From Entrophospora sp. SA101 (taxonomy: Eukaryota > Glomeromycota > Glomeromycetes > Entrophosporales > Entrophosporaceae): DNA of 64,000 nucleotides. The stretch covers positions 37,932 through 101,931 of the forward strand of contig CAUDNR010001890.1 of NCBI GenBank assembly GCA_958430865.1, written 5' to 3'. Below the pieces are notes generated by a model. The model saw nothing but the letters and a program-made list of their open reading frames with translations. It made no database searches and had not been told where the DNA came from. Of this stretch, positions 1,479-64,000 are shown piece by piece (the stretch's first letter is position 1; the number at the start of each line of letters is the position of its first letter). The position numbers were made by a program, and so were the translations under genes.

Positions 1479-1627
1479 TTTCGCAGATCACTAATTGAAA
1501 TTTTCCGGAACCCATACTTCATTCCTAAAAAACTACTATTTATACGAATTTATAAATTGTATTTGCAAATGTAATAAATAGTAAGAAACCCAAAGTTTTA
1601 ATATACAAATTTTCAAATGGACTTTCT

Positions 1628-2597
1628 TATAAAATATTTTATCTTTATATGGAGGGACCGCTGGATTCTTGCCTAAAATTGCTATATAAAACTTAAGATT
1701 CAAGTATAATATTTAATTATTTATTCAAGAAAAAAAAATATAAATAAGCGTTTGTAATTAGTTTTATTCAAAAAAAAAAGAAATATAAATAGATGTTTGG
1801 TTACTTTGAAAAGTTTAAATTTCACGTGAGGGACGGTTATATTCCAAAAATTCTAAAAATTATTATTATTAATATTGTTTATTATCGCCACAAAATTATA
1901 CTAGCGATCGGCAAAATTTTGCAGTAAACAAATAGAATTATTGAAATTTAAATTTGATGCTAGTTATATGTAATTAATGTCATAAATAAATACAATTCAT
2001 TTTCACTTTAACACATCTTTCCTTCTAAAAAAAATTAATACCAAAACAATCAAAATAATTGTTAGTTTTCTGATTTTTTTGTTTTTTTCCGTTTTAAGGT
2101 TAGTATTGATGCGGTGCGAACGTAAAATTTTTCCGCGTTGCCCAGCCTACACTGTGCAAGGTGTGATGAAGATTTTTATTTATACGGTCTACTTTAATTT
2201 ACGCAAGCAAAATTCTGCTGAATCATATACACTGACTATATTAATATTTAATTAGTAAATTTATAAAATCAAGTTTATTCGGATCTTTATTTTTTTCTCC
2301 TTATCATAATTATATAAACATCCTCAAATTCTCTTTTTTTTTAAAAAAAAATCAAATATGAAAAAATAATTCCTTCTAAAAAAATTCTAAAAAATTAATC
2401 CTTTAAATATAAACAATACACTTTGATTAAGTTGAATGGAAATTAAAATAATACGAAAATTAGCTACTAAATCATGATGGTGAGCAGAAAAGACTCTGAA
2501 AACATTGATTTAATAAAAAATCAAAGAAAAATCGCTAATTTTTCGCTCATATAATTACAATTGCTTTTTTTCGATAATAAATAAAAATCAGTCTCTT
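1628..2597. other. AT-rich intergenic DNA, no gene seen
   Basis: There are no supported coding frames. Around 2340-2410 is a short repeat (AAATATGAAAAAATAATTCC) also found near 12950 and 21915. A short frame from the ATG at 2477 ends after about 25 codons just before the HMG-like relic and may be a remnant of its original N-terminus. Confidence 0.4.
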
Positions 2598-2897
2598 TCC
2601 ACCACTGCGAAATTATCTAGTGGCAAAATTATTACTATTTGCGTACCTGAACTTAAAAATGCACAATTACTTCTTGAAAATAACACAAATTCAGGGCTAC
2701 CAGGTCCTCAATTACTTTTCTATCTTGCCTTGTTAAATGAGCTCACACAACAAATTCCTGATTTTAAGATTAGTAATGCAGAATTGGCAAAAGTTTTTAC
2801 TAATTCTTGGAGGAATTCCAGCATTGAATACACAAACGAATTTATTATCCTAGCAGACTTAACTAAATATCCAACTCGAAAGTTGGAAATTAGTTAA
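2598..2897 (+). pseudogene. HMG-box-like protein, decayed copy (module A)
   Basis: The frame reads from STTAKLSSGK through GPQLLFYLALLNEL and ISNAELAKVFTNSWRNSS to IEYTNEFIILAD. It is the same protein as the intact copy at 7180-7509. The N-terminus with its ATG is missing, being replaced by unrelated AT-rich sequence. A deletion of about 10 bases near the end removes the codons for KLGL and shifts the frame, so translation runs through the 3' hairpin to a TAA at 2895. It is therefore read as a pseudogene. Its HMG character (helix with FYxxLLNEL, then SNAELxKxFxxSWRNSS, then a final helix) is inferred from similarity to the MATA-HMG proteins of these fungi. Confidence 0.6.
2870..2887 (+). other. 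Conserved stop-proximal hairpin (module A)
   Basis: TCCAACT-CGAA-AGTTGGA is a perfect 7-bp stem with a four-base loop. The same hairpin follows each of the better HMG-like copies in the window. In this decayed copy the frameshifted reading frame runs through it. Confidence 0.75.
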
Positions 2898-3039
2898 GTA
2901 ATCAATTTATAATTTTTTTGATTAGATAACACAACCAACAAATAACCAATAATATCTGAAACACACAATCAAAAAAACAACATTTCGAAAAATAAGATTC
3001 AGATTTACAGCTCCTAAATTACTTTTTTATCATTAATAA

Positions 3040-3152
3040 TGTGGAATTTTTACCAATCCTTGGAGGAATTCCAGCACTGAATATACAAATGAATTTATTA
3101 TTCTGACAGACAACGTGAACTTGATTAAATATCCAACTCAAAGTTGGATATT
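3040..3152 (+). pseudogene. HMG-like C-terminal fragment with its hairpin
   Basis: The sequence TTGGAGGAATTCCAGC...GAATATACAAATGAATTTATT repeats the 3' part of the HMG-like gene (WRNSS..EYTNEFI). It is followed by AACTTGATTAA and then by an 11-bp perfect hairpin with a CAA loop (3128-3152). It lies about 240 bases after module A and looks like a tandem, 5'-truncated second copy. Confidence 0.6.
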
Positions 3153-3474
3153 GGTTATGAATTAATTTTGCAAAATATATTTACAATTTTTTTTGGGAAT
3201 CGTTATTATTAAAATCAGTTACAATGTAAATTTATTTCGGAAAATAAATTTTTTATCAAGACTATTATTTTAAATTGATAATATCGTAACATATTTTTTT
3301 ATTAATTCAACATTTTTTGTTAGTTATTTTTTATAATATTTTAATAAGTTTCATTTATAGACTTATAGATTAGATTTACTTTATTTATAATATAATAAAA
3401 CAAAAGATTGGCATCCTTCAAAAAAAATAATGTCTCCAATATATTGTTGGCAAATGATCATGTAATTTAATAAC

Positions 3475-4707
3475 CAGTGTTTGCAACTGGACTAAGTCCT
3501 GTTTTTTTATTCATTGGACCAACTGGACTGGTCCAATCCAGTCCAATCCAGCCCAATCAATTACAATCAAAAATACTTATGATATTAAAATTATTTATTT
3601 TTTATAGCAATGAAATTTTCATGAAAATTAAAATACATTACTGTAATATGGTAGTTGTAAATCTACAATGAACAAATTGCACAGTTCCCATTTTGCATTA
3701 TTATCCCTTTGTGGGTGTATATTATTGGAAGCATCAGTAATTAAATTTTTATTGATTCTATCATTTGTAATTGCTTCATTTTCATGAAAAGCCATATTTT
3801 CAGCTTCTAACATTTTGTTTCATAAAGACAATATTGATTCAAAATTACAACCTTTACTATTATTAGATTTTCATCTTAATCTCAAAGTCTTCAAAATCAC
3901 ATTCATTGTGATTCAAATTTTCTTCATCAGTTTCAGTTGAATTAACTTCATTTTGGTCTAAATTTTGAGCATTATTAGAATGATTAATAATCTCAAGTTT
4001 TTATTTCTGTATACTTGGCTCAAATTTAAGCCATTGTAATATAGCCTTATTATATTATAATAAAAAAATTATTGATTAAAATTTTACTTTTTAAAAATGT
4101 TACTATAATATCAAGAAAGACATGAAATATATTTCTATGCGGAGAATACAAAAATCCAAAGCTTTTCTATTGATGCTGAATTAATACATGTGCTAAAAAT
4201 TCTTTAGCAACATAACCTAACTCGGTTGTTTTAATTGAGCACCAATTCCAAGGTTCCAAATTTTGTAGAAAAATTTACACAAGAAGAAAGAGACTGAAAG
4301 GAGATTGAGAAGTATCAGTTGAAAGATAAATCATCATTATAATATTGCAATCCTTCATTAACATCTTGATTAACATCTTTGTTTGAAATTATTAGTGGAA
4401 ATGCTTTTATAATTAATTTTAAAAAATTGTACAAAAAACATATTGTTCTGTTTTCTTTTTTTGTTTAAATTTTTTGTTTGCCAGGCTTTTGTAGTTTCGT
4501 TATCCATTTCATTTAAAACCAATATGTATTTTGTTAATCAATTCTTTCCCGTTTTTAACAAAACAATAATGGATATAATTTAATAATAGTAAAAAGTCAA
4601 TTGAGACCAAAACAAGTAATTTTAATGATGATGATAATACAAAATTTTTTTGAATCAGTGGTGATTGGACCTGGGACTAGACTGTTCCAGTCCAATTACC
4701 AACACTG
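3475..4707 (-). mobile_element. Decayed hAT element
   Basis: The left end CAGTGTTTGCAACTGGACT and the inverted right end CAGTGTTGGTAATTGGACTG form terminal inverted repeats, with further TCCAGTCCAAT motifs just inside. On the minus strand, about 4130-4290, one frame reads ELGYVAKEFLAHV and a neighbouring frame reads SASIEKLWIFVFSA. These resemble the hAT C-terminal dimerisation block ending in a SERLFS-like motif. An acidic, Asn-rich frame lies at 3860-4000. Stops and frame changes show the transposase is dead. I could not find a matching 8-bp target duplication at the flanks. Confidence 0.55.
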
Positions 4708-6228
4708 CGAGTTAACATAGTAAATTTGTTAAACTTGTACTGATTTACAGACAGTATTAGTATCGTCACCAATTATTATTTGGGAGAGTGTAATAATTAA
4801 CAATAACAATAATTATTATGTGAATCGGTTATTACTAACTACGAGTTTCATTGATGGATAATTTTATTTAGTTATTTATAAAGAAATTTTTTATTGAGTC
4901 GAAACTAATTTGTTGTTGATTTATCTCTAAGCCAATATAGTTGTTAAACCTCATTACAAATTTAAATCACATCGAATTTGAACTGCTTATATATCATTAA
5001 TTCAATTATAGGTGCTCTTGTCACACACTTGCGTCTCCAATACTATTCCGTGCTTGTATAATCGCGCTTTTGTGATAAATAAAGTTAATTCGCAATTCAC
5101 CAAAAACGGAAAGAATTAAATAATGCAGATCGATGCAAAATTACAATCAAATACAAAAACCTCATTCACATTTATGCATAATAAAAGACATTTATGCTAA
5201 TTTTTTACCAGTAAAGTATGAATTTAAAACCGGCTCGGGATTATAGGTAAAATTGCAATATTCGAAACATTCAACTAAAAAATTCACTTGGAGAAATGTA
5301 ATTAAAGATTTTTATTCGTTACTAGAATACCTACTAATCCAATTTTCAATAGTTTTCAACTTTGAGATATCATTTACTTCCAACTCACCTGTTTTACATT
5401 AATTTGGAGATCTTTATATCGTTCATATTTATTTATGTCACCACTATTATCAGAACAACCGTCGAGTGCTTGGAAACTCTTAACACGTTGTTTACCGTGT
5501 CATAATATCATTGAAGTTAACTCTCTAAAGACATCGTCGTTTCTACAAAGTGTAGTTCTGCTGATTGTTCCCTCGGTGGAAGTTATTTGTTTAATAATTG
5601 AAACAAAAATAGAACACATATTTTTTTAATTATTATTTTTAATTATTAATTATTATTCGTTTTTTATTGATTTACGATTTATCACCACTTTACCGCTGTT
5701 TTTTATATTTCAAAAAGGCATGTTTGTTTACAATTTTAAAATAAATGAATCACTTTTTCGAATTATTACTATTACATTTTCAAAAACATGCATGCCATGG
5801 TCGTTTTTAATTAATTGATTAATTTAACATGTTTATATTACCAATATTTTCTAAAATGATAATAAAATAAAAAATTTATTAAATGCAATAACAATATAAC
5901 AACAACAATGTCATCAGTTCAATACCATTTTTTTCTTTATCCTTTTTTTATGTAAGAGATAATTTTTTATCTGACTTTTTTTTCTTGCATGATAATCAAC
6001 TTTTATAAACCTTTTCATATTTTTAGAATATTCACTCTCATATATCGAAGAAAAATCGCAAATCACTTATTGTAACCGTTGGTTGTCAAATGTTTAGATG
6101 TTCTAAATTCGGATTTTTTCATCCTTTCTTGTTTCAAATTTTTCTCTTCTCATAATCTTCAACTTTATTTCATCAACAATTGGTGATGATGATATATTTG
6201 AATCTATTAAATATAAATAAATTATATA
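4708..6228. other. Intergenic DNA, no gene seen
   Basis: This stretch is AT-rich, with somewhat higher GC around 5430-5600. The open frames present have no recognisable domain and no homologue elsewhere in the window. I see no RNA gene or element end. Confidence 0.4.
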
Positions 6229-6360
6229 TACACACCCTAGACAAAAGTTTTCGGGCACCTGTTTTTACCGATTGTGCAAAACTACACATAATAACTATTC
6301 ATAAAATTTTATTAAATTGTAACTTAGGTTTTGGTGAATATATGTGTAAAGTTTGGTATT
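6229..6360. mobile_element. Solo terminal repeat of a Tc1-like element
   Basis: CACACCCTAGACAAAAGTTTTCGGGCACC, then TTGTGCAAAACTACACATAATAACTATTCATAAAATTT and a GGTTTTGGTGAATAT segment, parallels the long terminal repeats of the Tc1 element at 31790-32679 and the termini at 26724 and 43445. No transposase or partner terminus was found nearby. Confidence 0.45.
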
Positions 6361-6423
6361 CTTAAAAGAGAATTGAGCATCAAAAAAATGTTATTTAAAT
6401 ATACCATAATTGCAACATTTTCT

Positions 6424-6666
6424 TAATTAATTGTGACAGTGTTTCAATTAATTATAACGCTTGCTTCATTAATTGTGACCAGGGCTGGAAATATGGTCTG
6501 AAAAAAAACGGAAGTTTCTCCTGAATGCTAAAAATTTTCCGGAAGTTAAAAATTTTAAAAGGAAAATCGGATTTTTAAACTACTAGTCATTAGTACTGTT
6601 TCCAGCCCTGATTGTGACATTTGCTTCGATTAATTATGACGTTTGCTTTACTAATTGTGACATAAA
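6424..6666. repeat. Short tandem repeat (TTAATTGTGAC units) split by a MITE
   Basis: About five degenerate units of roughly 22 bases, each TTAATT(G/A)T(G/A)AC followed by a GTTTGCTTCA-like tail, run from 6424 to 6666. The array is interrupted at 6480-6610 by the hAT MITE listed separately. Confidence 0.55.
6480..6610. mobile_element. hAT-type MITE with perfect 8-bp target duplication
   Basis: The element starts CAGGGCTGGAAATA and ends TGTTTCCAGCCCTG, giving terminal inverted repeats, and is 131 bases long with no coding capacity. ATTGTGAC at 6472-6479 and again at 6611-6618 is an exact 8-bp target-site duplication, the length hAT transposases make. The intact duplication suggests a fairly recent insertion. 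Confidence 0.85.
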
Positions 6667-7179
6667 ATTGTGGCGTAACACAATTTTGCTTTAAAATATT
6701 GTAGTAACATTTACTTAACCTTTTCAAGGCAATAATAGTAATAAATATATAATTTTAATCCTCCCTCTTATTACAAATCTATGATATCATAAATATTATA
6801 ACTTATTTAATCTCATTAGGAAACTGATAAATCCCAATGACATTACTAAATCAAAAAAAAAAAATCCCCAATGTTAAACTATATATTGTTTTACTGTTAA
6901 TTATTGTCTAACGTGATTGGTTTTGAAAGAAAAATGATTACGGGCAACGTTAATATGTCATTGGATTTGTCAGTTTCCTACCTCGGTTAATATAAATTAT
7001 TGCACGTGACCAAACCTCATTCATAATTATAACAACATTTTTTAGATTATGCACTTGAAAAAAAGAGCTAGTAAACTTTTTTATTCCGGTAATTAATATA
7101 AAAGGCTCATTTTTTTTTTCTTCTAAATATTTTTTTTAAAAATCCATCAAAAAACAATACAAAAAATAAACTATAAAAA

Positions 7180-7509
7180 ATGTTAATAGAAAATAAAATA
7201 GTCATTAATTCTCCGCTCACATTTAATTATTATACCACTGCCAATTTATCTAATGGCAAAGTCATTACAATCCGCATACCTAATCTTGAAAATGCAAAAT
7301 TACTTCTTGAAAACAACACAAATTCAGGGTTACCAGGCCCTCAATTAATATTCTATCTTGCCTTATTAAATGAACTCGCACAACAAACTCCTGATTTTAA
7401 GATTAGTAATGCGGAATTGGCAAAAATTTTTACTAATTCCTGGAGGAATTCCAGTATTGAATACACAAACGAATTTATTATCCTAGCGGATAAACTTGGA
7501 CTTAACTAA
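7180..7509 (+). CDS. Short HMG-box-like protein (module B)
   Basis: The protein has 109 residues from an ATG preceded by an A-rich leader, with no introns needed. Residues about 23-60 form a conserved front (TANLSNGKVITI, LENAKLLLENN). Residues 60-109 look like a compact HMG box: a PGPQLIFYLALLNEL helix, ISNAELAKIFTNSWRNSS for helix 2, and EYTNEFIILADKLGL for helix 3, then the stop. In MATA-HMG proteins of arbuscular mycorrhizal fungi a similar box binds DNA; here the basic tail is missing and the first loop is altered, so DNA binding is uncertain. The frame is intact, unlike copies at 2598 and 23356. An HMG-like regulator or a domesticated repeat product are both possible. Confidence 0.6.
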   Translation: MLIENKIVINSPLTFNYYTTANLSNGKVITIRIPNLENAKLLLENNTNSGLPGPQLIFYLALLNELAQQTPDFKISNAELAKIFTNSWRNSSIEYTNEFIILADKLGLN

Positions 7510-7512
7510 ATA

Positions 7513-7530
7513 TCCAACTCGAAAGTTGGA
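7513..7530 (+). other. Conserved stop-proximal hairpin (module B)
   Basis: TCCAACT-CGAA-AGTTGGA is a perfect 7-bp stem that starts four bases after the TAA of the HMG-like gene. The sequence around it is more conserved between modules than other non-coding DNA nearby, which suggests a role in the transcript 3' end, or common descent as part of a mobile unit. Confidence 0.75.
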
Positions 7531-7693
7531 AATTAGTTAAGCAATTAAGTTTTTGGCAATCGTTTAAGTTCGCAAACACAAACATTTTTTTAACCATTTA
7601 ATTGCGACTTTAATTTTAAAATTTTTAATTATGAACAATTTTATAATTCTTTCTTTATTAAAACCATTATTTTTAATCGCACAATAAATTCAT

Positions 7694-7810
7694 AGTTTTG
7701 GTTTTAATAATGAGGAATTGGCAAAAGTTTTTACAAACACTCGGAGGGATCCCAGCCTTGAATACACTGACGAATTTATTATTTTGGCAGATAAACTTGG
7801 ACTCAATTAA
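7694..7810 (+). pseudogene. HMG-like C-terminal fragment
   Basis: The frame NNEELAKVFTN, then RRDPSLEYTDEF, then IILADKLGLN to a TAA at 7808-7810 repeats the last 37 or so residues of the HMG-like protein. It lacks the front half and has TGG changed to CGG (W to R). A further 37-base scrap of the same region (TTTTGGAGGAATTATACACAAACGAATTTATT) lies at 7929-7965. Confidence 0.6.
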
Positions 7811-8240
7811 CTACAACTCGAAGTCAAGTAATTATTTAGCAAAGTGGATGATAAATATATAATGTTTTAAACATACACGAACAAGATTTCGAGCTCTTCA
7901 ATTATTTTTCTTGTTAGGTGCTCCTAATTTTGGAGGAATTATACACAAACGAATTTATTATTTATCCGAGTTCGGTTAAGCAATTATTTTTTTTGGCAAA
8001 AAAATTTTTTTTTCCTCGGTAATCGTTAAATTCGCAAACACAAACTCTCTTACTCTAATTTTAAGATATTTAACTATGAATAGCTTTTTTATTAAAATTA
8101 TTATAATGATATAACAATAATATTTTTTATTAATTTAATCTTTTATTAATTATTTTTTTTATTAAACATTTTATTTTAATGTAAACATTGTTTTAGTTTA
8201 TTTATAATAATAACAATAATGGTCTTAAATATAGACAATG

Positions 8241-8267
8241 TTGGTAAATGACCACGTAATTTGCCAA
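8241..8267. repeat. Module-end palindrome with CACGTA core (module B)
   Basis: TTGGTAAAT-GACCACGTA-ATTTGCCAA is an inverted repeat of 9-bp arms (one mismatch) around a 9-base core. The same block, with perfect arms, ends the module at 19343-19369, and half of it is seen at 24121-24143. The flanking ACATTGCTTGAATA is also shared. Confidence 0.65.
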
Positions 8268-8281
8268 CATTGCTTGAATAA

Positions 8282-8998
8282 ACAAAATGGAATGAATGAA
8301 TAAATTTTTGTATATTTTTTATGCAATTTGTTCATTGCATTCTACAGTTTCTTCATCTGCTCCTACCTATCATCATTATCATTTTCCGACTTCTCTATTT
8401 TTTTTCCTACTTTTCTTTCTACTTTTCTTTCTAATCCTTCTTTTTCACCAACATAATCTTTCACTTCCTCAACTTTTCCATTTCTCCTCCAACTTTACTT
8501 TCACCTCTTTGTGCTCTCATTTGCTTTTTTTAATTGTTCCAATTGTTGACATTTTTTGAAGTATAAAAAATTTATTTGTTTATTTTAATATTTTATATCT
8601 TTAATTACATCCTGATTGTGTTGAAATGGTTATTATAAAACAAAACATGAAATTTGACGTTTTTAAATGTAATTAAAATATTAATATCCATATGCCAATT
8701 GCTATTGTTGCTAATTGACAGGATTATAATAAGTCTATGATAATAAAACATCGTGTAATAACACATCCCTCTCTCTCTGTCTGTGTGTGTGTGTTTAAGT
8801 AATACATCTATGTTTATCCCAAATATCATACACTTCATATACTGTGTACACTTCTTACTTTTTTATCATTTAAATGGTTGTTTAAATTACCAGTTCATAA
8901 TGGAAATTCAGTCAAAATGAATAGTCATGTTGTAATTCATTATTAGTTTGATCAATTACCTTCAATAATGTCAGTCATATCTACGTTGTACTAATCCT
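8282..8998. other. Pyrimidine-rich and simple-repeat DNA
   Basis: A pyrimidine-rich plus strand spans 8390-8530, and a CT/GT microsatellite lies at about 8767-8793. The open frame over the pyrimidine tract is a hydrophobic low-complexity reading with no sign of being a gene. Confidence 0.45.
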
Positions 8999-10370
8999 TT
9001 AAATATCATTAGCTTGCATTGAGAATGAAGGTTCTGTTGAATTTAATAAACCATCACCTTGTGGTTCATTATTGGTTTGATCTATTAGATTATCGACATC
9101 TTCAATGGTGTTGGTTATATTGTCCAAATCTTGCATAACTTGATGAATATGAAGAAAAGAGATCTGGCTTTCCTTGTCAGTATGCTTTATAAAAATAAAA
9201 TTTAATTAATTTTAATATTGGTATAATTTATTAAGCAGTGTTGCTATTTAAAAAAACATTACTTGAGATTGTCCATTGAAAAGATCATAGGAAATGGTTA
9301 TATAATTCTTTTTATTATTACCTATATATATTTCTGCATATTTTCTTGGAGTTTTGATTATTGTTTCATGTTTTTCCTGATATTATCCCATGCATAATAT
9401 CATTGAATTTGATTGACTTATCTTCAAATGGGGTATGAATGAACACTTGAAATTCCCCATAAAAGCATTCCAATATTGATTTTTCATTGCAGCTATAATT
9501 TTCAGCATTATCCAAATATTTAGGATCTGAGGGTCATATTATTATTGTATCTAATCTTTTAAAAGCTTCTATTTGACAACTTAATAAGGATTTTGAGATT
9601 CCAAAATCACAATTTTAATATTCCATTATGAATGGGAATATTTTAGAAATATTAATGTTGGTTATTACTATTAAAATGTAAAAATAATCAAACATAAATA
9701 AGTAATGTTTATACATACCAGATCTCTATGTGCTATTTTATTTTGATGCAAATGACTTACAGCACTTACAAATTTAATTTAGTATTCCAACCCATTGTAT
9801 TAAGTTTGATTTTAAATGTTCACATAAATTACCGTTATTTGGATACTCTAATACAAACATGTAACTTTTTTTATGTTCTTCATTAATGATATGTAAAAAA
9901 AAAAAATAATAAGTATAATAAATATATTTAATTTAATAATGAAAGGTCAACAACATATTTTCTTTTGTTATGCCATGAAATCCTAATATATTACTGTGAA
10001 GTTTTGCTTTACAATGTTGTTTTGCCTTTATAGAAAATCAATTATAAAAGTTTTTGTTAGTATATAATAAACTTATTAGATAAAAAAAAGTTATTTACCT
10101 CATTTAGAGGTTGTTCAAAAGTATATTTTTGGTCAATATTAATCCCATAAATCCTTGAAAATTTTTTAAAGGTGCATGAGAAGTTGTGCCAAATGATCTA
10201 ACATTAATAAATTCAATATTTGAAGGAATTATAACCATAAAATAATACATTCCCTTTTAAGTTGATTTTTCCTTTCTAAAATGGCAATTCTAATGATTTT
10301 AATGATAATTTGAAGCTTATTGTTCTTTTTGGTTTTTTTCTTTTGTTGTAATCTCTTCTACCTCCTCCAT
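8999..10370 (-). pseudogene. TKL protein kinase, decayed
   Basis: Read on the minus strand, the relics appear in kinase order: a start MEEVEEITTKEKNQ at 10370; an N-terminal segment containing DQKYTFEQPLNE (about 10090-10230); YMFVLEYPNNGNLCEHLKSN; a catalytic-loop stretch SAVSHLHQNKIAHRDL ending near 9720; DFGISKSLLS; DPKYLDN..NYSCNEKSI; PFEDKSIKFNDIMHGIISGK; and an acidic tail with SMQANDI to a TAA at 8999. Introns remain between the segments. Stops and frame changes occur throughout (for example before the catalytic loop and after GIISGK), and the substrate-binding part is scrambled. It belongs to the kinase class expanded in these fungi but is not the paralogue of 27120-28997. Confidence 0.6.
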
Positions 10371-10477
10371 TTTGCCTTATCATTTGAACGACTGTGTAAA
10401 ATAGTCTTTCAATAAGTATCGGCTGCAGCTTTTATAAATAATTTATTATTAACAAATATAACGACATATAAAATTTA

Positions 10478-10555
10478 ACATGTAAGCCCATTAAGTCGGA
10501 TGCAACGATCAATTGTTTAAAATAAATAAGTGACCGACCTATCAAGTTTACATGT
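10478..10555. mobile_element. Small MITE of the ACATGTAAG family
   Basis: ACATGTAAGCCCATTAAGTCGG at the left and the inverse of CCGACCTATCAAGTTTACATGT at the right form imperfect inverted repeats. The centre shares ATCAATTGTTTAAA with the better preserved element at 25308-25403. It has no coding capacity. Confidence 0.55.
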
Positions 10556-10570
10556 GCGTAGGGTTTGAAA

Positions 10571-10737
10571 TAGTGTTGGTTTCCAAAACTAGAGAGTTTC
10601 GAAAACCAAAAGGTTTCACCATAAGTTGAAACTAGCCTTGATTTTTGACTATTGACTTTTGATTTAGTTTTGACATGTAATTTTTAATTTTAGTTTTGAC
10701 TTTCATCTCTTCAAAATAGTTTTGGCGACCAACACTA
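10571..10737. mobile_element. MITE with perfect 8-bp target duplication
   Basis: The termini TAGTGTTGGTTTCCAAAACTA and (inverted) TAGTGTTGGTCGCCAAAACTA enclose 167 bases. GTTTGAAA at 10563-10570 is repeated exactly at 10738-10745. The 8-bp duplication fits a hAT-driven MITE, although the terminus differs from that at 6480. The interior holds TTTTGACT-rich repeats. Confidence 0.85.
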
Positions 10738-11049
10738 GTTTGAAAGAAGGGCCAAAAAAACAAAATCGGCTGATATGGTAATTACATATTTTCCCATCAC
10801 TATCCTTGTCCAAAGTTGGTGCATGATGTTAATATATTGCCTGAAATGTTTGACTATATAAAAACAATCAATATATGTATAGGAAATCAATCATCCGTCA
10901 CGTCACTAAAATTTATTATTTGGTGATCAGCAAGTATCACAAGTACCTGATTTGATTGGCTAAATTAATTTCGTCAAAAAGATCCTTGACGATAAATATG
11001 AATTTCGTCATGTACAATTTCGTCAATTGAATAAATTCAGCAATTTAGT

Positions 11050-11115
11050 CAACCATTATTAATGCCCATAGAGCACATGATGCAAAGTCATGGGTCATAG
11101 TTCGATTGTAAATAT
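11050..11115. repeat. tRNA-like (possible SINE) segment, copy 1
   Basis: ATGCCCATAGAGCACATGATGCAAAGTCATGGGTC, then AGTTCGATTGTAA, resembles the 3' half of a tRNA with a B-box-like GTTCGATT. It is paralogous to 14576-14650, where an A-box-like part is also visible. It may be a decayed tRNA-derived element; no cloverleaf can be drawn with confidence. Confidence 0.3.
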
Positions 11116-11263
11116 CCTTTCATGGGGTTATATCAGTTTAACATCCCACATCATTTTATTATTTTTAAAAATTCGAAGTTAAAAAATAAGAAATTATGTT
11201 TAAAAAAGATAAAAATTTAGATTTTTTATCTATTATATATTAATATTAAAATAGTTATAATAA

Positions 11264-11850
11264 TTAAAAAAAAAAATAATAAAAAATAAAAGAATGAAGA
11301 AGTATTTTCGGAGGGTGGTTAGGAAATGTGTGAATTGTCGTCGAGTTTGTTGTTGTTGTTGTAAATGTCGGATTTGTAGTTGGTGTAATGGTGTTGTAAC
11401 CTGTTCCAATGTAGATATTAACCAATAAAATTCGTGTGTATGACACTATAATTGAATTTCATTGGTTAAATTTATTGGAACCACATTTGGAATGTTCCGA
11501 TTCCAATTGGAATTTATTAGAATGCTCCAATGAAATTTTATTGGAACCATAAATGGCACAACACCGCCTGTAATGACCGTATTTGATTTTGTTGAAAATT
11601 ACTTGATCTCGAAGTGGTGATTGTCGTGGTTGTCGTGATCTCCTAGCTACAGTTGTAGGACTAGGAGTTGGGTCGGAATAGAAGTAGAAGTAGAAGTAGG
11701 ATTAGGAGGTGTAAGAGTATTAGGAGTAGGAGGAGGAGTATGTGTAGGTGTAGGTGTCGGTAAAGGAATGTACGGTTGATGCATTAAAAATGCCAACGAA
11801 TTGTAATTGTTGTTATTAATGTTGTTATTGTTGTTGTTATTATTATTCAT
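11264..11850 (-). pseudogene. Low-complexity Asn/Gln/Pro protein, decayed copy 1
   Basis: From the ATG at 11850 the frame reads a poly-Asn tract, then YNSLAFLMHQPYIPL, then Thr-Pro repeats. A frame change follows, after which the sequence aligned with the second copy reads SNFQQNQIRSLQ. A roughly 170-base insertion at 11392-11565, bounded by GGTGTTGT and ACAACACC, breaks the gene here. The copy at 14870-15178 keeps the same order with a poly-Gln tract instead. The function is unknown. Conservation of YNSLAFLMHQ between copies shows it was once coding. Confidence 0.4.
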
Positions 11851-13969: not shown

Positions 13970-14575
13970 CAGTATTACTTAATTTAATACTAATATGTTA
14001 CTGTGAAATTTTACTTTACAATATTGTTTTGTCTTTATAAAAAATCAATTATAAATGTTTTGTTAGTGTATAATAAACTTGTTAGATAAAAAAATTATTT
14101 GCTTTATTGAGAAATATATTTTTGGTCGATATTAATCCTACAAATCCTTAAGAATTTTTTAAAGATGTGTGAGAAATTGTGCCAAATGATTCATCATCAA
14201 AAAATTCAATATTCCGAAAAAATTATAATCATAATCATGGAATAAATACATTCACTTTAAGTTAATTTTTCCTTCTCTAAAATAGATTCTGCATTTATTT
14301 TTTTAATGGTAATTCTAATGATTTTAACGGTAATTTGAAACTTATTATTCTTTTTTGTTTTTTTCTTTGTTGTAATCTCTTCCCCTTCTCCACTTTGCCT
14401 TATCATTTGAACAACTATGTAAAGTGGTCTTTCTACATTTATGAATGTTTTTGTTGACCTTCAATAAATTTCTGCTGCAGCTTTTATAAATAATTTAATA
14501 TTAACAAATATAATAACACATTATAAAATTTGAAAAATAATCGGGAAAATAGTATTCGTGTTATTACTCGTGCAA

Positions 14576-14869: not shown

Positions 14870-14925
14870 TTAAAAAAAAAACAAGAGAATGAAAAAATAG
14901 GTCATAAATTGAGTGGATTGTCGTA

Positions 14926-14960
<35 letters not shown>

Positions 14961-52382: not shown

Positions 52383-53754
52383 TTAAATATCATTAGCTTG
52401 CATTGAGAATGAAGGTTCTGTTGAATTTAATAAACCATCACCTTGTGGTTCATTATTGGTTTGATCTATTAGATTATCGACATCTTCAATGGTGTTGGTT
52501 ATATTGTCCAAATCTTGCATAACTTGATGAATATGAAGAAAAGAGATCTGGCTTTCCTTGTCAGTATGCTTTATAAAAATAAAATTTAATTAATTTTAAT
52601 ATTGGTATAATTTATTAAGCAGTGTTGCTATTTAAAAAAACATTACTTGAGATTGTCCATTGAAAAGATCATAGGAAATGGTTATATAATTCTTTTTATT
52701 ATTACCTATATATATTTCTGCATATTTTCTTGGAGTTTTGATTATTGTTTCATGTTTTTCCTGATATTATCCCATGCATAATATCATTGAATTTGATTGA
52801 CTTATCTTCAAATGGGGTATGAATGAACACTTGAAATTCCCCATAAAAGCATTCCAATATTGATTTTTCATTGCAGCTATAATTTTCAGCATTATCCAAA
52901 TATTTAGGATCTGAGGGTCATATTATTATTGTATCTAATCTTTTAAAAGCTTCTATTTGACAACTTAATAAGGATTTTGAGATTCCAAAATCACAATTTT
53001 AATATTCCATTATGAATGGGAATATTTTAGAAATATTAATGTTGGTTATTACTATTAAAATGTAAAAATAATCAAACATAAATAAGTAATGTTTATACAT
53101 ACCAGATCTCTATGTGCTATTTTATTTTGATGCAAATGACTTACAGCACTTACAAATTTAATTTAGTATTCCAACCCATTGTATTAAGTTTGATTTTAAA
53201 TGTTCACATAAATTACCGTTATTTGGATACTCTAATACAAACATGTAACTTTTTTTATGTTCTTCATTAATGATATGTAAAAAAAAAAAATAATAAGTAT
53301 AATAAATATATTTAATTTAATAATGAAAGGTCAACAACATATTTTCTTTTGTTATGCCATGAAATCCTAATATATTACTGTGAAGTTTTGCTTTACAATG
53401 TTGTTTTGCCTTTATAGAAAATCAATTATAAAAGTTTTTGTTAGTATATAATAAACTTATTAGATAAAAAAAAGTTATTTACCTCATTTAGAGGTTGTTC
53501 AAAAGTATATTTTTGGTCAATATTAATCCCATAAATCCTTGAAAATTTTTTAAAGGTGCATGAGAAGTTGTGCCAAATGATCTAACATTAATAAATTCAA
53601 TATTTGAAGGAATTATAACCATAAAATAATACATTCCCTTTTAAGTTGATTTTTCCTTTCTAAAATGGCAATTCTAATGATTTTAATGATAATTTGAAGC
53701 TTATTGTTCTTTTTGGTTTTTTTCTTTTGTTGTAATCTCTTCTACCTCCTCCAT
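52383..53754 (-). pseudogene. TKL protein kinase, decayed, copy 2
   Basis: Counterpart of 8999-10370, carrying the same stops and frame changes, so the gene was already dead when duplicated. Confidence 0.6.
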
Positions 53755-53954
53755 TTTGCCTTATCATTTGAACGACTGTGTAAAATAGTCTTTCAATAAG
53801 TATCGGCTGCAGCTTTTATAAATAATTTATTATTAACAAATATAACGACATATAAAATTTAACATGTAAGCCCATTAAGTCGGATGCAACGATCAATTGT
53901 TTAAAATAAATAAGTGACCGACCTATCAAGTTTACATGTGCGTAGGGTTTGAAA

Positions 53955-54121
53955 TAGTGTTGGTTTCCAAAACTAGAGAGTTTCGAAAACCAAAAGGTTT
54001 CACCATAAGTTGAAACTAGCCTTGATTTTTGACTATTGACTTTTGATTTAGTTTTGACATGTAATTTTTAATTTTAGTTTTGACTTTCATCTCTTCAAAA
54101 TAGTTTTGGCGACCAACACTA
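53955..54121. mobile_element. MITE with GTTTGAAA target duplication, copy 2
   Basis: Counterpart of 10571-10737. The smaller ACATGTAAG-family MITE lies just before at 53862-53939. Confidence 0.85.
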
Positions 54122-54647
54122 GTTTGAAAGAAGGGCCAAAAAAACAAAATCGGCTGATATGGTAATTACATATTTTCCCATCACTATCCTTGTCCAAAGT
54201 TGGTGCATGATGTTAATATATTGCCTGAAATGTTTGACTATATAAAAACAATCAATATATGTATAGGAAATCAATCATCCGTCACGTCACTAAAATTTAT
54301 TATTTGGTGATCAGCAAGTATCACAAGTACCTGATTTGATTGGCTAAATTAATTTCGTCAAAAAGATCCTTGACGATAAATATGAATTTCGTCATGTACA
54401 ATTTCGTCAATTGAATAAATTCAGCAATTTAGTCAACCATTATTAATGCCCATAGAGCACATGATGCAAAGTCATGGGTCATAGTTCGATTGTAAATATC
54501 CTTTCATGGGGTTATATCAGTTTAACATCCCACATCATTTTATTATTTTTAAAAATTCGAAGTTAAAAAATAAGAAATTATGTTTAAAAAAGATAAAAAT
54601 TTAGATTTTTTATCTATTATATATTAATATTAAAATAGTTATAATAA

Positions 54648-55234
54648 TTAAAAAAAAAAATAATAAAAAATAAAAGAATGAAGAAGTATTTTCGGAGGGT
54701 GGTTAGGAAATGTGTGAATTGTCGTCGAGTTTGTTGTTGTTGTTGTAAATGTCGGATTTGTAGTTGGTGTAATGGTGTTGTAACCTGTTCCAATGTAGAT
54801 ATTAACCAATAAAATTCGTGTGTATGACACTATAATTGAATTTCATTGGTTAAATTTATTGGAACCACATTTGGAATGTTCCGATTCCAATTGGAATTTA
54901 TTAGAATGCTCCAATGAAATTTTATTGGAACCATAAATGGCACAACACCGCCTGTAATGACCGTATTTGATTTTGTTGAAAATTACTTGATCTCGAAGTG
55001 GTGATTGTCGTGGTTGTCGTGATCTCCTAGCTACAGTTGTAGGACTAGGAGTTGGGTCGGAATAGAAGTAGAAGTAGAAGTAGGATTAGGAGGTGTAAGA
55101 GTATTAGGAGTAGGAGGAGGAGTATGTGTAGGTGTAGGTGTCGGTAAAGGAATGTACGGTTGATGCATTAAAAATGCCAACGAATTGTAATTGTTGTTAT
55201 TAATGTTGTTATTGTTGTTGTTATTATTATTCAT
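54648..55234 (-). pseudogene. Low-complexity Asn/Pro protein, decayed, copy 2
   Basis: Counterpart of 11264-11850, with the same insertion. Confidence 0.4.
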
Positions 55235-58200
55235 TTTGTTAAATATTATAAATTTTAATAACTTTTTATCTTTTAAAATTTTTTTTAAATTTTGATAAAA
55301 TGTTAATATTAGATTAAAAAATTTACAAGTTTAAATATTAAATTAAAATGAACTTTCCCTAAAAAAAAAAACCTGAAAAAACTGTTTAATGATTGAATTT
55401 TACTACTAAAATCCACTAATTACTGTTTTCTTTGTGACAGATATGGTAAAAGACTCATTTTTAAATAATTTGTTTAACAGAATAAATTACGTTTTATTAT
55501 TATGTCGAGTGAGATTTTTCTATTACCAAATAAAGATATATTAAACAATTTAAATTTTACATTATTATTATTTTGATTGTTTATAGTGTTTATTTCAAGA
55601 TTAATTAAACATTTTTTTTATCTAGTCCAATAACACGAGTGACAAAGATTTTGTTACTGTTGGTAATTAGTATTAATGTATTTTGCTTAAATATATAGAA
55701 TATTTTAATACTAACTAAACGATATCTCCAATAATAAATTAATAAATAATAATCAATGCATTTTTACATATAATCAATAAATAATTATACTTCTACAACA
55801 TCCATACGAACAAGTTGTTAGTTATAATTACCATCTTCTCAAATATTTGTGAACGTTGATTATATATAAGTTAATTGACATTCACGAACTCCTATCTAAA
55901 AAAAATTTTCCTTCTGCCCTCTGCAAAATTTCATTTTCCTCAAACAAAGAATATAGTCAGTTATTATCTTTATTATTATCAATATATGTTATATGAATTC
56001 AATATTACCCATATTAATAAAGATTGAATTACACAATACGTAATAATGACACGAATCATTTTTACGATCAGATCTATTTAATATTAATTCGGTTAATGAA
56101 TTTAATTATATGAATTAATAAATAATAAATAATATTGCCATATTAATCTAAGATTGAGTTACACAATGCATAGTATTCGGGTTAATAGTAAACCTAATTT
56201 TATAAACTACAGTAAATATAATTAAAATTAATAAATAATCAAAAGATGTAATTCAAATATCAATATATTATTATATGTAGTGTTTGTGATGGAATAATTG
56301 ATTAATTAATCGTTTTGATCTTTTATGTAGAAATATGAAAAAATAATTCATTCTAAAAAAAAATTAAACCCTTTTGATTATAGTGAAAACAAAGACTGAT
56401 TGCGCAGTATTTATTACTATTGCACAATAAATAAATAAGCAATGATATTAATTATTAAAATTTATTTCCAAACCATCCGATATCTCTATTATGTTAAAAA
56501 CATTTTATCTTTACAAAATAATTACGTTGACTAGATGACTCGCCATTCGTTATCGCATAATGGATATTAATTATTAAAATCTATCTCCAAATCATGCCTT
56601 AGAATAGCTACACACTATCTATTACTATTATAATAAATAACAACCACATAGATATTTCGTCATGAAACAATTGATCATATATAATTTTATTTTTATTTTT
56701 AGTTTTTTTTTTTTTTTTTGCGAAAGATTGTTTGTTAGTTTTATTTATTTAGAATTTATTTTATACATATTTTTAAAATACATAGTAATAGATAAATAAT
56801 GTATAAATATCGTGATCAATCCAATCTTTGCCCAACATAGTGGAAATTTGAAATGTTACATTAATTTTTTATATTGTGCAATGTAACTTTACAATACACG
56901 GCAAACATTCTAATATCTAGCCTTATGTTATAGATTATATAGATTAGATTAATATCATGTAAATTACACAAGCTTGGTCAAATTACCTCAGGTAATAATA
57001 ATTGTGGTGAACTTTTTAATCACGAAAGATTTTGAATGGATTAATTAATAAATAATGATAATTTTTTTATTACCAAAATATGCTAATCAACTATTGATCT
57101 ATTTCATCTGATTTTTGGATAAACTAATTTGCATTCAATTTCTGTTCAAGTAATGTTAGTTGACATGCAGAATTCTAAACCACTTGTTTGGCAATTTTCA
57201 TATGCCACGATTAGTAATTACGATTTTAATGATGCTCTCAGTAAATCTCTTCATAGCAAAAAATAGAAGAATGGAAGTAAATGTTAATAATATCGAAATT
57301 ATACACTGAAAAATATTGCTTATAAATTTGGCCAGGCGTTAACATATTAATATCAGTATTACTTAATTTAATACTAATATGTTACTGTGAAATTTTACTT
57401 TACAATATTGTTTTGTCTTTATAAAAAATCAATTATAAATGTTTTGTTAGTGTATAATAAACTTGTTAGATAAAAAAATTATTTGCTTTATTGAGAAATA
57501 TATTTTTGGTCGATATTAATCCTACAAATCCTTAAGAATTTTTTAAAGATGTGTGAGAAATTGTGCCAAATGATTCATCATCAAAAAATTCAATATTCCG
57601 AAAAAATTATAATCATAATCATGGAATAAATACATTCACTTTAAGTTAATTTTTCCTTCTCTAAAATAGATTCTGCATTTATTTTTTTAATGGTAATTCT
57701 AATGATTTTAACGGTAATTTGAAACTTATTATTCTTTTTTGTTTTTTTCTTTGTTGTAATCTCTTCCCCTTCTCCACTTTGCCTTATCATTTGAACAACT
57801 ATGTAAAGTGGTCTTTCTACATTTATGAATGTTTTTGTTGACCTTCAATAAATTTCTGCTGCAGCTTTTATAAATAATTTAATATTAACAAATATAATAA
57901 CACATTATAAAATTTGAAAAATAATCGGGAAAATAGTATTCGTGTTATTACTCGTGCAATAGTGAATTGGTAGCGAGTTCGATGTCCATTGGGCACACGA
58001 TGCGAAGACATGGGTCCAGGTCGATCGTAAAGATCCTTTCATGAGTTGTGCGAGTCTAACTTAACTAAGTCCCCCCACAATCATGCATGATTATTTTTAA
58101 AAAATTCGATGTATATATAATACACTCATGGTGAATCTCAATTTAGTGTAATGAAGTAAAAAATAAGAAATTATGTTGTTTAAAAGCGAGAGAAAAAACT

Positions 58201-58253
58201 TGGATTTTTTATTTATTTGTTATTATTATATATTATAATTATAAAAATTAAAA

Positions 58254-58309
58254 TTAAAAAAAAAACAAGAGAATGAAAAAATAGGTCATAAATTGAGTGG
58301 ATTGTCGTA

Positions 58310-58344
<35 letters not shown>

Positions 58345-58562
58345 AGGTGGTGTAATTGTAGTTGTTGTAGTTGGCTTAATTGCTGTAAAGACCGAATTTC
58401 ATATTGGTGTAAATTAAGTTGTCTTCTAATTGGTGGTTGTCATGGTCGTCTAACTACAGTTGTGGGAGTAGGAGTTGGGAAAAGTTGAGGTGGTTGTGAT
58501 AAAGGAATGAATTGTTGATGCATTAAAAATGCTAACGAATTGTAGTTGTTGTTATTATTCAT
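58254..58562 (-). pseudogene. Low-complexity poly-Gln protein, decayed, copy 2
   Basis: Counterpart of 14870-15178, with the same TGA. The tRNA-like segment that precedes it lies at 57960-58034. Confidence 0.45.
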
Positions 58563-59306
58563 TTTTGTTGATATTTTGCAAATTTAATTAATTATTTTAT
58601 AAACTTTTTATCTTTTAAATTTTTTTTTTTTGATTTTTGACAAAATGTTAGTATTAGATTAAAAAAATTACAAGTTTAAATATTAAATTAAAATGAACTT
58701 TAAAAAAATCCTGAAAATTACAAAAACTGTTTAAGGATCAAATTTTTATTACTAAAATCTATCAATTACTTTTTTAATTTGTAACTATACGTGAAAAAAA
58801 ACTTGTAAACAGACAGATATGTTAAAAAGACTCATTTTAAATAATTTGTTTAACAAATAAATTACTTTTTATGTCGAATGAGATTTTTCCATTACCAAAT
58901 AAAGATATATTATACAATTTAAATTTGGCATTATTATTTGTTTGTTTAATTGCTTTATATTGTAATGTTTAGATTTTGTTACTATTGGTATTAAATATAT
59001 ACTGATATGTCAAATGATATCATTATAATATAATTAATAAATAATTTATTTATTTACCTACAACATCCATACGAACAAGTTGTTAGTTATCATAGTCACA
59101 AAGTAATTACCTCTTCTCCAATATTTGTGAACGTTAATTATATTTAAGTTAATTAACATTCACGATTCCTATCTAAAAAAAAATTTCCTTCTGCCCTCTG
59201 CAGAATTTTCGGGACCATGCATTTTTCGCGAAGATGCTTTAAAAAAGTAGATTAATTATTATCATCTCTTTTTTTTTTATAATTGGTGTATTATTGTTTT
59301 AGGATT

Positions 59307-59489
59307 ATGTTATCTAATTCTTTAATATATATCTTTATTTACCATTGTAAAAATCAAATGTTTTATTTCTCACGGCCAAATTTAGATATGATTTTAGAAG
59401 ATCGTAATGATCCTAGTGGCCAAATTCGTGAACATAGTAAAATACATGTTCTAAAAAAGAATAGAACTCTACAACAAATAATTTTTTAA
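59307..59489 (+). pseudogene. Unrecognised coding fragment, copy 2
   Basis: Counterpart of 15923-16105. Confidence 0.25.
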
Positions 59490-60653
59490 CAAAATCTTTT
59501 TATTACATTGAAACTAAAGACTATTCTATCGCTATTTTTTAAAAGGTAGGTCAGAAAGTGACTTCTATACTTTTTAAAATTTGCGCAAGATTTAGGATGT
59601 CTTTAGACCGAGCCAACTATGCTTCGTATGATGCTTTTGGTAGATAAAAACGGACGGTCTTTTTTTTAATGGTTAATATTAGTATTGGTCGCTTATCCCC
59701 CCCCCCGTTGTATGTGAAATTGAATCTATAAAATTTGGAATGGGGTATTAGATATGAAATTCTGATTGGCTGAATTCACATAAATTTTCATTTTCCCCAA
59801 AAATTTTTTTTTTACCTTTTATTTTTCTAAACATAAAAAATATAAAATTTTATTTGAAAAATACTTTTTTAAACAATGAATTTAGCTTGGTTTTAAATTT
59901 AAACAATAAATATGCCAGTCATTATTTTTTTATGTTATAGAATCAATATTACCCATATTAATATAAGATTGAATTACACAATACATAATAATGACACGAA
60001 ATCATTTTTACGAATTCGGATCTATTTAATATTAATTCGGTTAATAGTGAATCCAATATGAATTAATAAATAATAAATTTTAATAAATAATATGGCCCAT
60101 ATTAATTTAAGATTAATTACACAATGCAATAGTATTCGGGTTAATAGTAAATCTAATTTTATAGGCTATAATAAATATAATTGAATTAATAAATAATCAA
60201 ATTTCTATTTAGTTTTAAAGTTGATGTGTTAGTGTAACCCACACTATACAACAATGTCATGAGCATAACTTGTGGCCACGTGATCAAATTAAACCCAGCT
60301 GAAGAAATAATTTTTTTTTAACAAAGAAATGTTATTATCTTTTCTAGAGATAAACTGTAGAATCACGATTGGTCAATTAATTAATTTATTCCATCAATAT
60401 TATATGTATATGCATTATAATATAATATTTATATGTTTTAATCACGCTCCAATAATAAATATGATAAATATATAATAATAATAACCTTTTCCAGCAAAAA
60501 CAGTCTTCGAGGTCATCTGACCAAATTTGATGTTTTTTTTTATAATATGAAATAAAGATTTAATTTATAATATAAGGCTAGATATTTTAATATTAAGTAC
60601 ATATTTTTATATAACTATTCCATATATATTTATATGAATCTTATTGATATTTA

Positions 60654-61394
60654 AAGTTGAAAATGATCGACATAATATAAAAGGAATGTTTTGTTTAGAA
60701 AAGTCACTCAGCCCTGATCATTCCTTAAATATCGTCATAAAGGTTTTTTACGCTCTTTTTGAGCAATTTTGTAATTCTTTATTTTTATCAAGTGTTGTAT
60801 TTAATCCCTCTTTTTTTTTTGCCTTTTTAGTTCTTCAATTATTTGCTCATATTCGATAATGCCAATGTAATATATCCTCTGTCTTCTGATTTTATTTGTG
60901 TATCTGACAACTCTCTATAAGCTGTGTTTCTGGATCTGGTAAAGGAGTTTGGGTTTGTTGTGTCTTAGTCTTTTTGTTTTGACTATTTTTCTTCAGTTTC
61001 TTCTAAAGAAATCAAATTATCTCTTTTTTTTGCAAATCTCCGCATTAGATTCTTTTTTGTTCCACGTAATGAATATTTTGTGGTGTGGGACTCAAATAAA
61101 CAATGCAATTCACTAGTAGCTAGTCTTGATTTTCCAAATTGGAAAGAGGATTGATTTGGAAGAATTCGTTGTTGATGTCGCAATTGTAGCTGACGTTGTT
61201 ATTGTTATAATTGGTTTAGTACAATATTTAGTTGGGGAGAATAATGCGTTTTAATTTTTTGAAAAAAAATTTTAGAAGCAGAAAAAAAATATCTCTCATC
61301 ATTAGCTCGGACTTCCTGGTCTGGAATTCCACAATTCAAATGTTGCCGTATGTACTGTATCATGCGCACAAATTTATTACGAAAAATATTCTGA
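60654..61394 (-). pseudogene. Decayed gene of unknown family, copy 2
   Basis: Counterpart of 17270-18010, with the same interrupted frames. Confidence 0.35.
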
Positions 61395-62089
61395 AATTAG
61401 TTAAATTCTAAATATCTTTTAGCCTCTAAAAAATTATTTATTTTAGTCTTGTGATACTGTTGTGGGGAAAAGAAACAATAAATTAATAATTCTATATTTG
61501 TTATATACACCTAAGCCACTAAGCATGATATACTTTCCTTTTAACAAATTAGATCGAAACCTTGAACGTTCTTTTCATAAAATTAGTTAGCTACTATTAT
61601 ACACGTATATGTACTGTATCATCTGTCCTAGTTTCCCTTTTTGGACTTAAACTAATTTGGAAAATTTGATTATCCGTCAAACCTATTACTCATACTTGCC
61701 GCCCAAGGTCAAATTCCAAAATTCGAATCTATAAATTGATCTAGTATGAATTGGTAAGTTAATTAGCTTTTTTAAATAATTCCTTCTTCTAATCCCTTTA
61801 AGTTATATGGCAAATAGTTTAAGACTGAATTGGATTATAAAAAAGGCTTTGATTAAGGAATAATACGAAAAATGAACGCCTAGACATTCTTCCTCATATT
61901 TTTGAAATCATATGGTAAATACGACAATAGCATCATATGTTAGCTGATTTCTGGACGCTAGAATTAATTAAGGTAAAAAATTACATATAAATAATATTAT
62001 GGCTCCTAAAAAATAAAATTTTAATCACAAAATCGATTTCAAAAATTTTTATTTTGAAATTTGGTCTTAAAATTTTATCAAAACGATCA

Positions 62090-62395
62090 ATGAAAAATAC
62101 AATGATGGGATCTCTTTTTACCATTGCAAACTTGTCAAATGGCAAAAAAATTACGATTTATGCGCCTGATCTTGAAAAAGCACAAATACTTGTTGAAAAT
62201 AACGCAAATTCGGATTTGCCACCTGCACAACTAATTTTTTATCTTACCTTGTTAAACGAGATTGCAAAGCAAATTCCTAATTTTGATATTAGTAATGTGG
62301 AATTGACAAAGATTTTCACTAATTCTTGGAGGAACTCCAGCCTTGAATACACAGACGAGTTTGTTATTTTGGCGAATAAACTTGGACTTAATTAA
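62090..62395 (+). CDS. Short HMG-box-like protein (module E, copy 2)
   Basis: The 101-residue product is identical to that of 18706-19011, followed by the same 10-bp hairpin (62396-62419) and palindrome (62727-62753). Confidence 0.6.
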   Translation: MKNTMMGSLFTIANLSNGKKITIYAPDLEKAQILVENNANSDLPPAQLIFYLTLLNEIAKQIPNFDISNVELTKIFTNSWRNSSLEYTDEFVILANKLGLN

Positions 62396-63488
62396 ATATC
62401 CAACTCGAAAGTTGGATATCGGTTATATATTATATCGGCAATCAGCAATAATATTTTAATATTAAACACACACAAACAATATTTCGAATCCCTCGATTAC
62501 TTTTCTTGTTATATGCAATAAACTCCTAATTTTGGAGGAATTATACACAAACAAATTTATTACTCGATTATTTTAATTGACATTTTTTTAATTAATTATG
62601 GACAACTTTTTTTATTACAATAATATTTTTTTTTATTAATTTAATCTTCTATTAATTATTTTTTTGTTAAACATTGTTTTCGTTTATTCATAATAATAAA
62701 AACAATAGTCTCGAAATACAGACAGTTTGGCAAATGACCACGTAATTTGCCAACATTACTTGAATATACCAATTGCGGTATCTATATCTTAGTCAGAAGA
62801 AGCTAGATCATGGTATATGACACAAATATTCCATTGAAATGCAATGTTTTTTTAACAAACTGGTCACTTTGCTCCAAAAAAAATAAAAAAGCTACATATT
62901 AAAGGCATGATAAAAAATTGTGCCTTTCCACCAAACTAATTGAAAAATCACCAAAAATACCAAATAAACTTATATATAGTCTCTAATAACAAAGTTTATT
63001 TAAAAATTCTTTTTTTAAAATAGAGCTTGATCAATTAATCAACGAATCCAATGATTTTTTTGCTCGATGGTTTTCACACACATACCTTCTTTCTTTATAT
63101 ATCTATTTTTTATTATCTCTGACATCAACTAATCTTTTAATAAACCATCTAGGTAAATAAAAATAACACACCAGAAAAAACACTTGTAATATTTTCACCA
63201 CTCCGAATTCAAAAGTATAATAAATCCAAGGTTTTGGCTTTTCCCTTCTGGCTTGTTTTTACTTTTGTTGGCGAGAATCTGTTTCTTTGATTTTCATTAA
63301 AACAACAGTTTTTTCGACGTTATAACATTTACCCTCGCAGCATTAATCATATAAATACATTTGTTTATTTTTTCCATCAATTTCCAATTAAAGCTTAATT
63401 TTTAAAATTCCATGAGTCTATTTGAATAATATTTTTATATTTTTTAATTAATATATAATAGATATAATATATACAATATATACAATAT

Positions 63489-64000
63489 ACACTGGCCTAC
63501 AGTAATTTACCGGGTTTTTTTTACTATTTATGGAATTATGTTTTTTGTGTATATGTAAAAAAATTTTTATATTTATTATTTGACAAAAACAAGTTTTCAA
63601 AATAAAATCCTAAATGTGATGTTTAATGTTTAAAATTTTTAAATGAACAGGCTAATATTTAGTATGTCCACCTTTAGCCTTAATTACTGCTTTGGCACGA
63701 TCTGGTAAGCTTAAAATTAAACAATCTAGCGTTTCTATGCTGATTTTCCCCCATTCCTCTTGTATTACATTTATTAATTCCTGTTTAGATTTAGGCAGAG
63801 GTTTTCTTTTACATACTTGATGATCCAGATAGTTCCACAAGTTCTCAATCGGATTAAGATCTGGACTTTGCACCACCAAATCTAAAATCGGAATGTCATG
63901 TGTTTTCATCCACCAAACACTATAATTTGATGTATGACATGGAGCTTTGTCTTGCTGAAAAATAGAATTAGGGTAATTATTAACCCATGGTATAAAGTGT
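63489..64000 (-). mobile_element. Tc1/mariner element, copy 2, cut by the window end
   Basis: Counterpart of 20105-20616. It holds the left inverted repeat and the transposase C-terminus with [11 protein letters not shown] on the minus strand from 63652. The rest lies beyond the window. Confidence 0.75.

Follow-up and report, generated by a model that had tools for sequence, protein, structure and literature searches.

A near-identical 19-kb repeat in Entrophospora sp. SA101 very probably reflects one locus assembled several times

The stretch of DNA analysed here, a 64,000-nucleotide window of Entrophospora sp. SA101, contains a block of 19 kb twice, at a fixed offset. Was this locus duplicated in the fungus, or did the assembly write it more than once? 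The window corresponds to bases 37932-101931 of a scaffold of 203,543 bases (C1318), the remainder of which was also compared. We estimate at roughly 94% the probability that one locus was written several times by redundant assembly, and that this is not a real gene duplication. The assembler is favoured because the pieces that carry the locus are bounded by gaps, the differences between them lie at joints, identical housekeeping genes are multiplied in the same assembly, and the published method is prone to duplication. The initial annotation had offered three readings (a tandem duplication, a dispersed duplication, or one locus placed twice) and leaned towards the assembler or a very young event. 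Its assembler reading is supported, while its 43.4 kb tandem unit is not.

In a self-comparison of the window, the two copies align over 19,138 bp at an offset of 43,384, with 5 mismatches, 0 indels and 99.974% identity. Window positions and strand are as follows.

1479..20616, forward strand: copy 1 of the block, in a gap-free piece here called B
44863..64000, forward strand: copy 2 of the block, in a gap-free piece here called C, its right edge being the end of that piece

This match is far above chance, and it agrees with the repeat without net length change that had been described from the letters. The mismatches are at window 1508, 1559, 1560, 1598 and 1627 on the copy 1 side, all at most 149 bases from the left edge. 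The final 18,989 bases show zero differences, and the homopolymer runs are identical between the copies, as had also been noted. The chance of 5 random differences all landing in that edge is about 3 in 10^11, for a 149-base span picked post hoc, with the mismatches already known. Confined to these first bases, the mismatches therefore mark the edge of copy 2 and not its age.

The scaffold is divided by runs of N at 35377-35386, 81456-81465, 101932-114423, 138778-139853 and 160873-172824 into six pieces, named A to F. Three elements concern the window directly.

Scaffold 35387-81455 (46,069 bases): piece B, which holds copy 1; window 1-43524 is its right part
Window 43525..43534, no strand: run of 10 N between pieces B and C (scaffold 81456-81465), located between both copies
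Scaffold 81466-101931 (20,466 bases): piece C, window 43535-64000, which holds copy 2

A run of 12,492 N begins at the base right after the window end, which means that copy 2 stops on the right because its gap-free piece stops there, and not at a biological boundary. The idea of extending the comparison past 64000, to see whether the match continues from 20617 onward, therefore runs into N; yet pieces F and D match B beyond 20616, to 24507 and about 26162, respectively.

All six pieces carry parts of one locus; A, D, E and F, which lie beyond the window, add four partial copies, in both orientations. Given as scaffold coordinates of the matching part of B, these are:

35387-42448, with overlaps at two tandem duplications, and 43750-55632: carried by piece A
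49338-64197: carried by piece D (24,354 bases)
42454-55998, opposite strand: carried by piece E
42433-44410, inverted, and 52836-62438: carried by piece F

Genome searches covered 2123 contigs with a total of 101.3 Mb. With window 10000-12000, a 2 kb part of the block, as the probe, C1318 gave four full-length matches at 100% and another, partial, at 95%. The remaining listed matches, on this scaffold and elsewhere, are partial, with 71-98% identity.

Taking piece B as the reference, the pieces differ very little. The 5 differences of C are at its left edge only. The main segment of F (9,598 bp) has 0 and its inverted segment has 2, close to the outer end; E has 1 indel in 13.5 kb. In piece A, two segments were compared: the first, of 5.9 kb, shows a single indel, and the second, of 11.9 kb, shows 5 differences, namely one at a joint and 4 substitutions inside 11 bases. 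Piece D differs in 29 columns; its first 62 bases hold 12 of them and its last 113 hold 14, the other 3 being single-base indels in the interior. Secondary alignments of D and F (about 530 bases and 59 differing columns each) were excluded, because in them two related repeats of the locus are aligned with each other. The copies thus show no independent divergence, with differences clustered at joints and, elsewhere, a few single-base indels plus the 4 substitutions in A. One segment is missing from a copy altogether.

Window 4518..5828, forward strand: segment missing from piece A, from the comparison of A with B

No full-length copy of this 1.3 kb segment was found outside C1318 by the genome search, parts of it matching other contigs at 70-90%. 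On these grounds, a transposon was not retained as the cause of its absence from A.

In terms of edges, copies are bounded by gaps or piece ends, as expected of redundant placement by an assembler. The right edge of the C copy and one end of the E copy are at gaps, one end of the F copy is the scaffold end, and in piece A a gap follows 69 bases past the last joint. Both edges of the D copy are in dispersed repeats, not at gaps. Pieces switch to other flanks inside dispersed repeats or at overlaps of 1-8 bases. A real duplication should show contiguous sequence through both edges; here the copies are linked only across N, and copy 2 ends on N. The joints in dispersed repeats have these window positions.

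43535..44862, forward strand: left flank of copy 2, also found at 100% (rounded) on contigs C161 and C1061
1420..1900, forward strand: dispersed repeat at the left edge of copy 1, containing the switch between B and C and all 5 mismatches
44863..45206, forward strand: part of that repeat on the C side, where C161 and C1061 still align with C
11414..11473, forward strand: left joint of piece D, a short dispersed repeat with 12 clustered differences
26162..26266, forward strand: right joint of piece D, with 14 differing columns before D departs from the locus

The repeat at 1420-1900 has 49 genome matches, most of them on other contigs. Past the edge, C161 and C1061 are exact for 63 bases, followed by gaps and mismatches up to scaffold 83137 (97.5-97.6% overall). 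As for the other flanks, the left one of D is found at 100% on C1725, and most of the right one at 99% in a repeat-rich region of C1443. The left flank of F, which overlaps the match to B by 69 bases, is found at 100% on C1551 (two full places, one partial) and on C77.

Genes for MCM, chaperonin and RNA polymerase are normally single-copy, and we searched the genome with these three housekeeping families. A place was said to have an exact twin when it shares its score in every matched stretch with another place; equal profile scores mean equal protein and not equal DNA, which was compared for two sets. MCM is found in 6 places, of which 4 have an exact twin and form 2 sets; for chaperonin Cpn60/TCP1 there are 19 places, and 10 of them have an exact twin, in 5 sets. 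Of the 9 places with the second subunit of RNA polymerase, 5 have an exact twin; the 2 sets consist of three places on C1359 and two, inverted, on C459. Taken together, 19 of the 34 places have an exact twin, in 9 sets, so that normally single-copy genes are multiplied elsewhere in the assembly as well. The chaperonin gene on C1455 shows the same pattern as the C1318 block: bases 5001-21064 recur at 35383-51446 as a direct copy of 16,064 bp with 3 mismatches and no gap, 10,541 N lying between them. The RNA polymerase gene of C1359 lies in three 10-kb stretches, two direct (offset 19,290) and one inverted, identical over 9,973-10,000 bp.

Among the RNA polymerase results, C2074, C555 and C1799 match the beta subunit along almost all of the domain and contain in-frame TGA codons, presumably as in Mollicutes-related endobacteria. 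These are possible candidate symbiont contigs.

Further joints are found inside the locus itself, at the window positions below.

4509..4523, forward strand: exit point of three joints (pieces A, E and F), within 15 bases
14905..14910, forward strand: joint of piece F, which has 4509-6479 inverted and then continues at this point, with a 3-base overlap
17694..17701, forward strand: joint at the end of piece A, with a jump to the opposite strand at 20661-20668 and an 8-base overlap

The jump at the end of A spans about 3 kb. Overlaps at the four joints within the locus are 1 base (the skip in A), 8 (the end of A), 4 (E) and 3 (F). An overlap of at least 3 bases is thus seen at 3 of 4 joints, while random joints in the same sequence reach it in 9.2% of 200,000 trials. 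The end of A and the joint of F are inverted; E also switches strand, although the sequence that it joins is only 98.8% like A 9750-11970, and the skip in A is direct. For chimeras of multiple displacement amplification (MDA), the available part of Lasken and Stockwell 2007 (PMC1855051) describes joins that are inverted, skip some sequence and have a short complementary overlap. Comparable joints are seen where piece A ends and inside F. Leaving aside the joints in dispersed repeats, most overlaps are within the 2-21 nt used as a mark of such chimeras. Unlike those in that text, the present joints are known from assembled sequence and not from reads, and one of the four is a direct skip with a 1-base overlap. 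The four joints may agree with such an origin, being too few as proof.

A Tc1/mariner-type transposase was observed at window 20271-21288 (reverse strand), in two frames, with DDE_3, HTH_23 and a sub-threshold Sleeping Beauty HTH match. The end of A jumps into it on the opposite strand.

How might one locus come to be written several times? The published assembly work on Claroideoglomus claroideum/C. luteum SA101 is relevant here (PMC6987183, in its available sections). A total of 24 nuclei were amplified singly by MDA, and the per-nucleus Illumina and pooled Nanopore reads belong to BioProject PRJNA528883. In workflows 1 and 2 each nucleus had its own MaSuRCA or SPAdes assembly, and Lingon merged these; in workflow 3 the reads were pooled ahead of assembly. 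Scaffolding against a Nanopore assembly was then done with Chromosemble. Assembly 2n in Table 1 has 130.41 Mb and a longest contig of 338 kb. Workflow 2 gave more duplicated genes, ascribed by the authors to contigs that Lingon did not assemble properly, and such consensus assemblies are presented as prone to duplication. The strain there is probably the Entrophospora sp. SA101 studied here, given the strain name and the equation of Claroideoglomeraceae with Entrophosporaceae in the available text of PMC9835108. The present assembly resembles those merged single-nucleus assemblies in strain name and in the duplication-prone merging. It differs in that the sections available of PMC6987183 report gene counts and not this locus.

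A possible course of events would have four steps. Singly amplified nuclei would have been assembled apart, and some contigs would have turned chimeric. Merging with Lingon would then have left equivalent contigs uncollapsed, and Chromosemble, if its gaps are of the 10-N style that we assume, would have lined up the leftover contigs with N between them. The general case of this link between method and artefact is documented by the authors; for this locus we infer it from the gaps, the joints and the near-zero divergence. With redundant placement, the offset of 43,384 would be merely the length of the pieces between two placements.

Several points weigh against redundant assembly. The evidence comes from assembled sequence, and the large N runs might be something other than assembly gaps. 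Pieces A and B differ by the 1.3 kb segment given above, 15 of the 34 housekeeping places have no exact twin, and the three 10-kb stretches of C1359, to which that comparison was limited, contain no N, so that copies are not always adjacent to gaps. Joints in repeats or at microhomology also arise in real rearrangements. A real and extremely recent amplification into several places, direct and inverted, with breaks in dispersed repeats or at microhomologies, would account for the distinct flanks of several copies, for breakpoints in dispersed repeats and for the overlaps of 3, 4 or 8 bases at three of the four inner joints. We consider it very unlikely, since divergence away from the joints is almost nil and all five pieces other than B have at least one copy edge at an N run, the scaffold end or a dispersed repeat (69 bases short of it in A). 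Many simultaneous young duplications would also be needed, as RNA polymerase, MCM and chaperonin genes are likewise multiplied. It is even harder to believe, though still conceivable, that individual nuclei carry real, very young and structurally different amplifications in both orientations, the assembly then recording true variation from nucleus to nucleus and not only laboratory or software error. The long direct repeat and its very high identity do resemble a real segmental duplication. The near-zero divergence, the bounding gaps, the flank switch inside dispersed repeats and the recurrence of the pattern elsewhere in the assembly do not.

The initial annotation had also considered a 43.4 kb tandem duplication, which would double the kinase, CRAL-TRIO (its Sec14-GOLD), acetyltransferase and septin genes. 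Within the window, the direct orientation and the fixed offset are what such a unit would give. Against this, an N gap is all that joins the two copies, the sequences to their left are different, and further copies have another spacing, one of them inverted. Moreover, a 3.6 kb probe from between the copies (window 30000-33600) has a single full-length match in the genome, and this unit has next to no likelihood. Hardly any credence is left, too, for uncollapsed nuclear haplotypes of a dikaryotic fungus. Genes located in two places on different contigs would fit these, such as the chaperonin pair on C1902 and C1572, with slightly different scores; the locus itself is in six pieces and not two, all on one scaffold, with almost no substitutions whereas scattered ones would be expected.

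If redundant assembly is the correct explanation, gene-family sizes, claims of recent duplication and synteny taken from this assembly are likely inflated, some housekeeping genes included. The signature may also serve for other merged single-nucleus assemblies: identical blocks at a fixed offset, with edges on N gaps or dispersed repeats and differences only at joints.

Outside the repeated block, we observed a gene with a recognizable domain and two small duplications, at these window positions.

29542..31674, forward strand: CRAL-TRIO (Sec14-like) gene, outside the repeated block, with CRAL_TRIO in exon 30671-31036
30218..30449, forward strand: perfect tandem duplication of 116 bases that spans an exon-intron boundary in the CRAL-TRIO gene
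32906..33191, forward strand: perfect 143-base tandem duplication

Along 97% of its length, the spliced CRAL-TRIO query of 512 amino acids is 100% identical to a protein from Entrophospora sp. SA101 (order Entrophosporales), compared to 59% for Rhizophagus clarus. In view of these two values, repeat placement by OPERA-LG (PMC4864936, available part) was dropped as a mechanism. R. clarus HR1, a candidate source on account of its low GC and of a hybrid assembly that includes MDA-amplified PacBio reads (PMC6007072), was dropped with it. Comparison with the R. clarus protein suggests that a 23-residue stretch, present in both the query and the public protein, may be an intron read as exon. The 116-base and the 143-base duplications are each possibly an unmerged overlap. 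The former was not retained as proof of error through a frameshift of the CRAL-TRIO gene, because it holds a donor and an acceptor site and splicing could skip it. Two more perfect tandem duplications, at scaffold 16474-17241 (384 bases) and 36425-36667 (121 bases), are each seen in only one of the two copies A and B, which is the expectation for unmerged contig overlaps.

As for short proteins, most of the sequence of a public SA101 protein (P0211) is encoded in piece D, and also in B and F. Four related short open reading frames are found at window 2517-2894, 7177-7506, 18607-19008 and 23326-23583, all on the forward strand, with 79.7-89.2% DNA identity among the pairs seen. None has a Pfam match over the curated cut-off; judged by eye, they presumably recall divergent HMG-box proteins. 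One of them has 10 homologs, including Entrophospora candida and Entrophospora sp. SA101, and one homolog carries a precomputed TPMT label. Searches of the window with Rfam (gathering threshold) and for tRNA found nothing.

An inverted repeat at window 31787-32682 has arms of about 145 bases that are 89% identical, and the element that they bound matches many contigs. Lastly, two related kinase genes on the reverse strand (27123-29018 and 38703-40328) share 77-88% DNA identity in blocks, and the coding sequence of the second is spread across several frames, as in a decayed copy. Among the best 120 of 1262 matches to a kinase fragment from the window, a protein of Funneliformis geosporum ranks first.

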